Positions 22,166-48,009 of a stretch of DNA of 64,000 nucleotides are shown piece by piece. The stretch comes from Saccharofermentans sp. Its GTDB lineage: Bacteria; Bacillota; Clostridia; Saccharofermentanales; Saccharofermentanaceae. A program made the position numbers and the translations under genes. Position 1 is the stretch's first letter. Each line of letters opens with the position of its first letter. The notes beneath the pieces were generated by a model. That model did no database searches and was not told the origin of the DNA. It worked only from the letters and a program-made list of their open reading frames with translations. Location: positions 1 to 64,000 of the forward strand of contig JAEFBB010000003.1 of the NCBI GenBank assembly GCA_016292215.1, given 5' to 3'.

Positions 22166-23260
22166 TCAGACGTTGAATCTGAAGACTACGACATCGCCGT
22201 CCTTCATGACGTATTCTTTGCCTTCTGATCTTACAAGGCCCTTTTCTTTAGCTGCGTTGTAAGTGCCGTTAGCGATGAGGTCATCGTATGCTACGACTTC
22301 GGCTCTGATGAAGCCGCGCTCGAAGTCTGAGTGGATCTTGCCTGCAGCCTGGGGAGCCTTTGTGCCTCTCTTGATAGTCCATGCTCTGACTTCCTTGGGA
22401 CCAGCGGTAAGGAAAGAGATAAGGCCTAAGAGTGTGTAGGAAGCGTTGATCATCTTATCGAGACCTGCGCTCTCGATGCCTAAGTCTTCAAGGAACATCT
22501 CGCGGTCTTCGGGTGAGAGCTCGCCGAGTTCTTCTTCTATCTTAGCTGAGATTACTACAACGCCGGAGCCTTCCTTGGCTGCGATATCCTTAACGACCTG
22601 AACATAAGGAATGTCTTCGTTCTTCTTGATGTCATCTTCTGCGATGTTTGCGCAGTAGAGGACAGGCTTCATGGAGATGAGCTGGAGATCCTTGATGTAT
22701 TCCTGTTCGTCTTCTTCGAAAGTGAGAGTTCTTGCGGACTTACCTTCTGCGAGGCAGTCGTAGATGCGCTCATAGACAGCGAGTTCCTTAGCGAAAGCTT
22801 TGTCGCCGCCTTTCATCATCTTCTTGGTGCGGTCGATACGCTTCTCCATGATCTCCAAGTCGGAGAGGATAAGCTCGACGTCGATCGTAGCGATATCACC
22901 AGCAGGATCAGCGTGACCGTTTACGTGGATGACATCGGGATCATCGAAGCATCTTACAACATGAACGATGGCGTCGCACTCTCTGATATTGGAGAGGAAC
23001 TTGTTGCCTAAGCCTTCGCCCTTGGAAGCGCCGGCAACGAGGCCTGCGATGTCAACGAATTCAACGACTGCGGGTGTATATTTCTCAGGGTTATAGATCT
23101 CGGCGAGTTTGTCCAATCTCTTATCAGGGACGGAGACAACGCCGACGTTAGGTTCGATCGTGCAGAAAGGATAGTTTGCTGCTTCGGCGCCTGCTCTGGT
23201 AATAGCATTGAAAAGGGTGCTCTTACCGACATTAGGAAGTCCTACGATACCAAGCTTCAT
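22166..23260 (-). CDS. ychF: Redox-regulated ATPase YchF (Obg-related GTPase family)
   Basis: [67 protein letters not shown]. Confidence 0.96.
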
Positions 23261-23321
23261 ATATTTACCTCTTGAATAGTTATTTTTGCCTCATAATTTT
23301 AGCACATTCAAAGCATAATTC

Positions 23322-23409
23322 TTTGTTGGTTGTTTGTCGGTATTTGTCGGGTGTTTGTATGTTCTTTTGTAGGTTTTTGTAATAATGTGTCTGTTTTTGT
23401 CGTTTTTGT
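23322..23409. repeat. Phased array of TTTGT (ACAAA on the minus strand) pentamers
   Basis: TTTGT starts at 23322, 23333, 23343, 23354, 23366, 23376, 23396, 23405 (spacings 11,10,11,12,10,20,9). Confidence 0.75.
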
Positions 23410-23508
23410 CTTAGAACTTGTCGGAAATCTTCGTGGTTTCTTGCGGGATTTTTGCACTGATAATTCGATTTTCAAGAGTGTATTCTGCTCTTAAAAGGAG
23501 GATTTCGT

Positions 23509-25032
23509 ATGGCTGCAAAACCCAATGTCGCAAGACTTTATTCCTGCTTTGCAACAGGGACGGAAGTAATAGATACAGTGATCGAAGTAGCTATAGCTCC
23601 CGGCATCCCGACGTTCTCAGTTATAGGCCTGTGCGATTCTTCGATCAGGGAAGCTCAGGGAAGATTGATATCAGCATTTAAGTCGACCGGATTTAACATG
23701 CCCAAAGGACATATAACAATTGGCATAAGTCCTGCATATATGCGCAAGACGGGAACGGGCTTCGATCTTCCGATGGCTCTGGGGATCCTTTTTGCATCAG
23801 GACAGCTTTATCTGCCACAGGATGCAAAGATCTATGCGGAAGGAGAACTGGCTCTGAATGGTGAAGTGAAGGCGACTCCCGGATCGTGCATCAGGCTTAA
23901 GTCAGTACAGAGAAATCCGGTGCTTGATTACAAGATAATCCCGCAAAGTGAGGCTTCGAGTGCGGGCGTTGTAGGATTTACGGGGCATGCCATTTCGAGC
24001 CTTGCGGAATTAACTGATATTTTCGACGGAAATAATTATAAAGAGAGTTCTTTTGATTTTGCTGTTGAGCAGTCCAAAGAAGACTTTATCGATATCTCAG
24101 CGCTTAAAGGGCAGGAGAAAACCAAGAGGGCTTTGCTGATAAGTGCGGCGGGGTTTCACAATATCATGCTTTTAGGGAGTCCCGGCAGCGGTAAGACGAT
24201 GTGCGGAAAGATACTTTCAGGCATTCTTCCGAAGCTCAGCGCAAGTGAGTTGGCAGATGTTTATTCAGTTAACGAGCTTGTCGAAGGTGAGTCATCAGTA
24301 ATCAAAGATGATCGCCCCGTAAGACTTGTCGGGCCTTCTGTTACTGTAGGAAAATTACTCGGGAACGCAGTGAGCATTACTCCGGGAGAACTCGCTCTGG
24401 CAAATCACGGAATACTATTTGCTGATGAGCTTCCGCTCTATAAAAACGAAGTGCTGGATTTTTTGAGAGGACCATTGGAAGAGCGGAAAGTCCATCTGAT
24501 GAAAAAGGGCAATCTTTATTCATTCGACTCAAACTTCATATTTCTCGGTACGGGCAATCCTTGTAAGTGCGGGTTGCTCTATGAATCAGGAAGTAAGTGC
24601 AGATGCAGTGAAGCTGAGAAGATCAGGTATCTTTCAAAGATCAGCGGGCCGTTTTTGGAACGTATCGATATCCTCAGCGAGATGAGATCTGTAAAAGGTG
24701 AAGATCTGGCTTCGATATACATCGATAAGGATAACGGGGAGAGTCCGGATTACAGGAAGACTGTAGAGCGTTGCTGGCAGATCGCTCATGAGAGATATGG
24801 TGCTGAACTTTTGAACGGTACTTTTCCTGAAGGAGATATCAGGGATTCGATGCGCGTTACTGAGAAGGCAGTAAGATTTGCATCTGAACTTTCTGAGAAA
24901 GGATTTTTCTCGGCCAGAGGGTTTACCAGGATCTTAAGAGTCGCCAGGACTATTGCGGACATTAACGAGAGAGATGATGTAACAGCCGATGAGATAGCAG
25001 AAGCGGCACAATTCAGGATGCGGGGTATATAG
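23509..25032 (+). CDS. comM: YifB/ComM family Mg-chelatase-like AAA+ ATPase
   Basis: ComM N-terminal domain (VEVAIAPGIPTFSVIGLCDSSIREAQGRLISAFKSTGFNMPKGHITIGISPAYMRKTGTGFDLPMALGIL), Walker A GSPGSGKTM, FADELPLYKNEVLDFLRGPLE; RBS AAAGGAGG. Confidence 0.9.
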   Translation: MAAKPNVARLYSCFATGTEVIDTVIEVAIAPGIPTFSVIGLCDSSIREAQGRLISAFKSTGFNMPKGHITIGISPAYMRKTGTGFDLPMALGILFASGQLYLPQDAKIYAEGELALNGEVKATPGSCIRLKSVQRNPVLDYKIIPQSEASSAGVVGFTGHAISSLAELTDIFDGNNYKESSFDFAVEQSKEDFIDISALKGQEKTKRALLISAAGFHNIMLLGSPGSGKTMCGKILSGILPKLSASELADVYSVNELVEGESSVIKDDRPVRLVGPSVTVGKLLGNAVSITPGELALANHGILFADELPLYKNEVLDFLRGPLEERKVHLMKKGNLYSFDSNFIFLGTGNPCKCGLLYESGSKCRCSEAEKIRYLSKISGPFLERIDILSEMRSVKGEDLASIYIDKDNGESPDYRKTVERCWQIAHERYGAELLNGTFPEGDIRDSMRVTEKAVRFASELSEKGFFSARGFTRILRVARTIADINERDDVTADEIAEAAQFRMRGI

Positions 25033-25034
25033 TC

Positions 25035-26276
25035 ATGATTTTGGATAATGCGGATTCAAGATTTGAAGATATGTTTTATTCAGCCGTGATGCTGAATACA
25101 GAGGTCACATACAGGACTTTGTGTGACCTGAAAGATAATTTGGCGATAAAAGATTACAGAGATCTTCACGACAGGGAGCTTTTAACAGCAATCGCCAAGG
25201 GGGAATTCAAGTTAAGGAATGATACTGTCTTAAAGATAAAAAAGCTGCTTGAATCTTTTGGCGACCTGGAAAAGATCGTTGAAAAGTATATTCGGATTGC
25301 TCAGGCAAATCACATTGGTGTTGTATCTGTTCTCGATAAATTCTATCCGTATAACTGGAGAGCGTTAAGCGGGATGCCTAAGGTATTTTACTGCAGGGGC
25401 GATTACTCGCTGATTGATTCAATAACGTTAAAAGGCTCAGTCGCTGTAGTGGGGTCAAGAAGTCCGAGTAAATATGCTCAATACGCGACAGATCAGATAT
25501 GCAAAGAACTGGGGGAAAAGAGCGTAACAATTGTTTCAGGCATGGCTTACGGTATTGACCGGCAGGCTCATTTGTCATCGGTTAAAACAAAAGGCGGAAC
25601 AATAGCTATCCTCGCAGGAGGCGTGGACAATATCTATCCGCCAAAGAATAAAGATATATATGATCTCATAAGCAGAAACGGACTTATTATCTCGGAGATG
25701 CCGCCCGGTCAGCAGCCTTTAAGACAGTATTTTCCTTCCCGGAACAGACTCATAGCCGGTCTTACTGACTGTACTGTGGTTATGGAAGCAGGCGCTGTAT
25801 CAGGGACTTTGCATACGGCGTCTTTTGCGGCTAATCAGGGCAAAGAAGTTTTCGTGCTCCCGAACAATATCTACTTTGAGAATGCAAAAGGCGGACTAAA
25901 GCTCCTTGAAGACGGCGGAAATGTGCTTTTGGGTGCAGACAATGTTATCGACAGTGTTGCGAGGTCGGTCATGTATAAACGCATGGCTCTCGGTTGTGCG
26001 GGGGAGATCAATTATTTAGATGACAAGGAGGATTTCGAAGGGCAGGATGATATTGATCTTATTAGAGAACTTGCCAAGGTAAAGCCTGAAGCCGTCAATG
26101 ATGAGCAGTGGAAGATATTGATTAAGGATGCCCTGTCGTTAAAATCTTTGTGCGTTGATGAGCTGTGCGTGCTTACGATGCTGCCGTTTTACAAAGTGTC
26201 AAAGCTGTTGACAGAACTTGAACTTAATGGGACAGTATGTCAGGAAAAGGGGAAGTATTCGTTGACATTTGTATAA
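25035..26276 (+). CDS. dprA: DNA processing protein DprA
   Basis: VAVVGSRSPSKYA, IVSGMAYGIDRQAHLSS, TIAILAGGVDNIYPPKN, YFPSRNRLIAGL. Confidence 0.93.
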   Translation: MILDNADSRFEDMFYSAVMLNTEVTYRTLCDLKDNLAIKDYRDLHDRELLTAIAKGEFKLRNDTVLKIKKLLESFGDLEKIVEKYIRIAQANHIGVVSVLDKFYPYNWRALSGMPKVFYCRGDYSLIDSITLKGSVAVVGSRSPSKYAQYATDQICKELGEKSVTIVSGMAYGIDRQAHLSSVKTKGGTIAILAGGVDNIYPPKNKDIYDLISRNGLIISEMPPGQQPLRQYFPSRNRLIAGLTDCTVVMEAGAVSGTLHTASFAANQGKEVFVLPNNIYFENAKGGLKLLEDGGNVLLGADNVIDSVARSVMYKRMALGCAGEINYLDDKEDFEGQDDIDLIRELAKVKPEAVNDEQWKILIKDALSLKSLCVDELCVLTMLPFYKVSKLLTELELNGTVCQEKGKYSLTFV

Positions 26277-47727: not shown

Positions 47728-48009
47728 TCTTTATGTTTTGCGCTTTTTCGTCTTACGCTGCTCGTTATGCGCGGGGCCCCCACTTTTTGTGTGACAAAGA
47801 CAGTCATAATACCTTCAAGATTTCATACAAGGTCTAATACAGAAACGACAAAATGCTGCAAGGAATCGTCAAAACCCGTGAAAAAAGCATACAATTACCT
47901 CTGAAATTGCGACAAAATACCCCCTATGAAATTATGGTTCTGAACCCCTGTTTTATTCCGCCCATATTAAGCCCCTTTGTGATAGAATAAACACTGTTCG
48001 AGGTGAATC

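Follow-up and report, generated by a model that had tools for sequence, protein, structure and literature searches.

Tandem boxes between ychF and comM

The window, meaning the whole 64,000-nucleotide stretch analysed (G000:C38:1-64000), belongs to a 2.33-Mb draft assembly that is 92% complete and 6.6% contaminated. Relatives were collected by protein search and comprise Saccharofermentans species and rumen and gut Clostridia. The spacer between the divergent genes ychF and comM carries short tandem repeats, referred to below as boxes.

22166-23260, minus strand: ychF, divergent neighbour, probably not a target
23296-23301, minus strand: ychF -10 hexamer TAAAAT (TACAAT in relatives)
23323-23328, plus strand: box 1, TTGTTG, weak; shares positions with the ychF -35 zone
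23334-23339, plus strand: box 2, TTGTCG, perfect; column conserved in the six nearest species
23344-23349, plus strand: box 3, TTGTCG, perfect (box scan and six-species alignment)
23355-23360, plus strand: box 4, TTGTAT, weak; TTGTCG in some relatives (box scan and alignment)
23367-23372, plus strand: box 5, TTGTAG (box scan and alignment)
23377-23382, plus strand: box 6, TTGTAA, weak (box scan and alignment)
23387-23392, plus strand: box 7, GTGTCT, degenerate; within a 20-bp gap
23397-23402, plus strand: box 8, TTGTCG, perfect
23406-23411, plus strand: box 9, TTGTCT
23418-23423, plus strand: box 10, TTGTCG, perfect; last clear box
23452-23457, plus strand: possible degenerate box close to the promoter, TTGCAC (two relatives have TTGTAC); TATTCT lies 29 bp further on (alignment, geometry and inference)
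23459-23464, plus strand: alternative comM -10, GATAAT, invariant in six species (alignment)
23481-23486, plus strand: probable comM -10, TATTCT, inside the invariant GTATTCTGC (sequence and alignment)
23495-23501, plus strand: comM ribosome-binding site AAGGAGG (sequence)
23509-25032, plus strand: comM, YifB family Mg-chelatase-like ATPase; the gene that the array appears to serve
25035-26276, plus strand: dprA, same direction, 2 bp past comM

The initial annotation had described this spacer by its TTTGT pentamers, and its count, coordinates and spacings, together with the TTGTCGG positions, were all exact on re-checking. Eight TTTGT start within 88 bp, at 23322, 23333, 23343, 23354, 23366, 23376, 23396 and 23405 (spacings 11, 10, 11, 12, 10, 20 and 9), and TTGTCGG occurs at 23334, 23344 and 23418. 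The minus strand of the window holds at most two TTTGT per 88 bp. Neither eight TTTGT within 88 bp nor eight in a phased chain arose in any of 5,000 shuffles of the intergenic region that preserved its dinucleotides.

Comparison of the ychF-comM spacers of relatives identified TTGTCG, rather than TTTGT, as the conserved unit, repeated in tandem with a 10-bp period, as in TTTTGTCGGTTTTTGTCGGTTTTTGTCGG at locus L009. In the window ten boxes, weak ones included, stand in register from 23323 to 23423 with a mean step of 10.6 bp; four are perfect and all are oriented toward comM. The degenerate box 7 fills the 20-bp gap, and the array extends to 23423. Alignment of the spacers of the six nearest species (the window's own counted) showed that the box register is kept and individual boxes have decayed. 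Elsewhere in the window's genome the intergenic region has a single DNA match, at 47817-47853, an isolated box-like tract containing CGACAAAA and not a tandem array.

Throughout the genus, a group of Saccharofermentans-like Clostridia, the array is kept wherever comM adjoins ychF. At three loci where comM lies elsewhere (L011, L017 and L018) no array was found in the DNA upstream of ychF, and in one genome with a relocated comM (G001) an array precedes comM at its new place. By this comparison the array is assigned to comM and not to ychF.

Arrays upstream of competence and Tad pilus genes

Genomes were searched for TTGTCG-N4-TTGTCG-N4-TTGTCG with up to two mismatches, the same pattern reversed serving as control. 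Every tested genome of the genus contained the three-box pattern, typically at 5-15 sites in a well-assembled one, against 0-2 matches for the control. In the window's genome arrays precede comEA, comEC, recA, a tadZ/cpaE-like gene followed by tadA, and a TadE-like pilin operon, and further arrays lie before a gene of 196 aa and before four paralogous genes of a ~260-aa family. The sampled genomes yielded 85 distinct sites, about 79 of which head one short list of genes: the 260-aa family (27 sites), tadZ-like genes (12), the TadE-like operon (10), comEC (6), comEA (5), recA (4), Rpn-like genes (4), comM (3), the 196-aa family (3), small Fst-like ORFs (3), yraN (1) and a hicAB-like locus (1). 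Here comM is under-counted because most comM arrays came from the ychF loci. The names Rpn, HicB and YraN, and in relatives those of ComEA, ComEC and the pilus genes, come from reading of sequences and clustering with Pfam-confirmed members of the window's genome.

Arrays in other families of the order likewise precede comM, comEA-like, comEC, recA and TadE-like genes and a probable prepilin peptidase gene. Box-to-box spacing was exactly 10 bp in 208 of 236 intervals, and the letters T-T-G-T-C-G are 94-99% invariant, a figure partly built in by the choice of boxes for similarity to TTGTCG. A common operator thus stands before comEA, comEC, comM/dprA and recA, the arrangement expected of a natural-competence regulon. 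On this evidence the array in the window is very probably an operator of a competence/Tad regulon.

No array was found upstream of the pilB/pilT type IV pilus operon that coexists with the Tad genes (L314, G000:C45:25337), where TTGTCG is isolated, or in front of a comFC-like gene near a tadZ/tadA operon (L096, 2783-3590). At one locus (L103 / L035, G005:C1:955978) about 1.8 kb and an opposite-strand ORF lie between the array and the TadE-like operon, as if an element had been inserted between operator and operon. Tandem TTGTCG boxes also precede a parA/soj-like gene in a genome of another family (L343, G026:C1:8434).

Some less familiar genes follow the arrays. A multi-copy, fast-diverging family of ~240-300 aa lies behind TTGTCG arrays at L098, L099, L100 and L093 in the window's own genome and at about 20 loci of relatives, often on predicted leaderless transcripts. 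It has no Pfam match, and its invariant residues are S145, E148, E165, D180, E195 and G198 (alignment A2). For the 260-aa family Foldseek returned nothing but weak matches, led by the restriction enzyme DrdV (E 0.16), while FAN1 and MunI ranked lower; together with the motif pattern these suggest, as a lead only, a PD-(D/E)XK nuclease. Tiny hydrophobic ORFs of 28-29 aa (L155, L127 and L039), directly past arrays in relatives, resemble type I toxins and gave one weak Fst match (E 0.007, below the cut-off). In G001 and G019 the array heads probable Rpn / PD-(D/E)XK transposase-like genes (L123, L124, L138 and L040).

Promoter geometry

Across 115 distinct arrays, -10-like hexamers are most frequent exactly 30 bp from where the last box starts and peak again at 40 bp, as a missed or decayed last box would explain. 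No -35 element is evident at array promoters. In 59 arrays a -10-like hexamer at 28-31 bp could be paired with a placed start codon. For 18 of them the two lie within 12 bp of each other, mostly at exactly 6 nt, so close that leaderless transcripts are predicted.

In the window, 41 and 63 bp separate the last perfect box from the two candidate -10 elements; this departure from 30 bp, like the count of just four perfect boxes in ten, speaks against the reading proposed below. Relatives with short spacers have TATNCT 29-30 bp beyond their last box. The comM -10 is probably TATTCT, with TTGCAC as its putative proximal box, and the main array would then lie further upstream. An inverted box, CGACAA, between array and -10 looked promising by eye; found in 7 of the 115 arrays against 1.6% of random windows, it was set aside as a minor feature.

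A Spo0A-like protein as candidate reader

The Spo0A box is TGTCGAA, within which Spo0A contacts G2, C4 and G5 (PMC3485338). All three contacted letters are retained in TTGTCG; the arrays keep the TGTCG core and not the terminal AA. A search with PF08769, the Spo0A DNA-binding domain, gave at most one divergent gene per genome. By profile search a Spo0A_C-like gene was found in 38 of 40 genomes, single-copy, its match split by stops in one (G039). In the window's genome it is the following gene.

G000:C27:17025-17519, outside the window: candidate regulator gene

In the genus the candidate regulator is ~170-200 aa long, with a Spo0A-type domain after a short N-terminal part. A search with the single sequence (phmmer) found no Spo0A; a profile built from the candidate's alignment matched the Spo0A-DNA complex 1LQ1 at 5e-11. 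With a predicted model the seven best PDB matches in Foldseek were all Spo0A with probability 1.00, at weak E-values of 0.06-0.15. The candidate thus has a Spo0A_C DNA-binding domain. In place of a phosphorylatable receiver (~120 aa) it has only ~70 aa, with invariant G22, G31, D38 and R40, which may be a truncated receiver-like remnant. Its score against NCBIfam spore_0_A is 15.6 bits, the cut-off being 200, and it is not Spo0A proper. Canonical Spo0A is absent from these genomes, as is, in 40 of 40, SpoIVA, the mark of endospore formation used here.

The distribution of the Spo0A recognition helix bears on the link between protein and array. Genomes of the genus keep its ER pair, as do other genomes with arrays; in G026 the pair is DR. 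The four genomes of genus g5 have CY instead of ER and show no array excess; this association of helix and boxes is suggestive only, coming from one lineage in which comM does not lie beside ychF. In G026, which belongs to another family, the regulator gene is itself preceded by boxes, TTTGTCGCTTTTTGTCG, as would be expected for autoregulation. Two genomes, G006 and G022, have arrays and no regulator detectable by profile search. The syntenic neighbour of the regulator gene, fthC, is likewise missing in both, which makes an assembly gap the likely cause.

On these comparisons the Spo0A-like protein probably reads the TTGTCG boxes. An unlikely but still viable alternative would keep the same com/Tad operator and assign it to another transcription factor, for example a response regulator binding direct repeats, leaving the Spo0A-like protein some other role. 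Direct repeats of 10-11 bp period suit several regulator families, the candidate gene was not detected in the two array-bearing genomes mentioned, and G024, G032 and G037 show no array excess although their recognition helix is intact. Against another factor, the conserved box letters include those that Spo0A contacts, the candidate is single-copy in nearly all genomes, arrays are missing where the helix has lost ER, and boxes stand before the candidate's own gene in G026.

Earlier readings of the array

The initial annotation had entertained several roles for the repeats. Its suggestion of cooperative sites for a competence regulator is supported, since the array moves with comM and is found again ahead of the other com and tad genes; its remaining suggestions fared less well. 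It had also seen an ACAAA array of the ychF promoter, possibly acting as an UP-like element or through phased A-tract curvature. Such an effect on ychF is very improbable: the units are T-rich and phased at ~10.5 bp, and box 1 overlaps the ychF -35 zone, but ychF at the three loci with comM elsewhere has no array, and arrays recur at com/tad genes, oriented to those genes. Absence of the array from ychF without comM, and boxes pointing toward comM, leave the ychF readings unsupported. Curvature would moreover leave the invariant G, C and G of TTGTCG, as constant as its Ts, unexplained. Nor is an unstructured leader likely, given that the inferred promoter comes after the array. A functionless decayed minisatellite, or chance enrichment, has next to no likelihood: slippage can yield similar tandem 10-11-bp units and several boxes in the window are degenerate, but the register is conserved in six species and the genome-wide distribution, before one functional gene set with control matches of about zero, refutes it.

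Proposed mechanism

Taken together, these data favour, with a probability of about 0.74, a reading in which the array serves to activate comM-dprA from upstream, as part of a genome-wide competence/Tad regulon, and is read by the Spo0A-like protein. The array and its conservation, the membership of the regulon, the promoter geometry and the candidate's presence and predicted fold are read from sequence. In the proposed mechanism the reader would be this conserved single protein, its Spo0A-type C-terminal domain placed behind an N-terminal domain of ~70 aa. Tandem protomers would occupy the TTGTCG boxes, one per helical turn and along a single face of the DNA. With the last box 30 bp before the -10 at most targets, the regulator would sit just upstream of the -35 position, and once bound would activate sigma-A RNA polymerase where the promoter shows no evident -35. 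We infer that binding to the boxes would lead in this way to activation of com and tad genes and, as the outcome, to DNA uptake.

A broader proposal, which we favour by a small degree, extends this to an entire order of Clostridia that do not sporulate. There the Spo0A DNA-binding domain would have outlived sporulation and the loss of the receiver and been rewired to activate DNA uptake directly, as its master regulator. A co-regulated Tad pilus would be the uptake machine, and multi-box helical arrays and, at many targets, leaderless transcripts would belong to the system. This suggests a possible fate of the sporulation master switch once sporulation is lost.

To our knowledge, the control of competence in Clostridia is largely unknown. 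A literature search for TTGTCG with competence returned nothing relevant, and searches on Tad and competence in Clostridia and on Spo0A with com/tad in non-sporulating bacteria did not find this regulon described in the literature searched. For rumen and gut bacteria, an operator that can be read defines the regulon and supplies candidates for its master regulator and for the uptake pilus, along with several new competence-linked families; it may also open a way to induce transformation in anaerobes that are genetically intractable.

Comparison with known systems

The 10-bp tandem layout resembles the paired 0A boxes of Spo0A. As with Spo0A and the 0A boxes of Bacillus and Clostridioides, the boxes described here have a TGTCG core with the letters G2, C4 and G5 that Spo0A contacts, and the candidate's DNA-binding domain is homologous (PF08769; 1LQ1/1FC3). 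Unlike Spo0A, the candidate has no full receiver, AA is not constant at positions 6-7 of the box, spoIVA is absent from the organisms, and structural com and tad genes are the putative targets.

In the ComK regulon of Bacillus subtilis one activator serves comEA/comEC-type, recombination and pilus genes, as the candidate would here. That regulon differs in its operator, ComK boxes being AAAAN5TTTT pairs and those here TTGTCG direct repeats, and in that the candidate regulator comes from another protein family. ComK drives the competence genes of B. subtilis, and Spo0A~P acts upstream of ComK (PMC3297582).

Transformation dependent on a Tad/Flp pilus has been described in Micrococcus luteus (PMC4322843) and in Liberibacter (PMC8513845). 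In those organisms, as would be the case here, Tad pilus genes are tied to DNA uptake; here the tie is a common operator in Clostridia, seen at the sequence level. By analogy with Micrococcus and Liberibacter, natural transformation by way of the Tad pilus is plausible in these bacteria.
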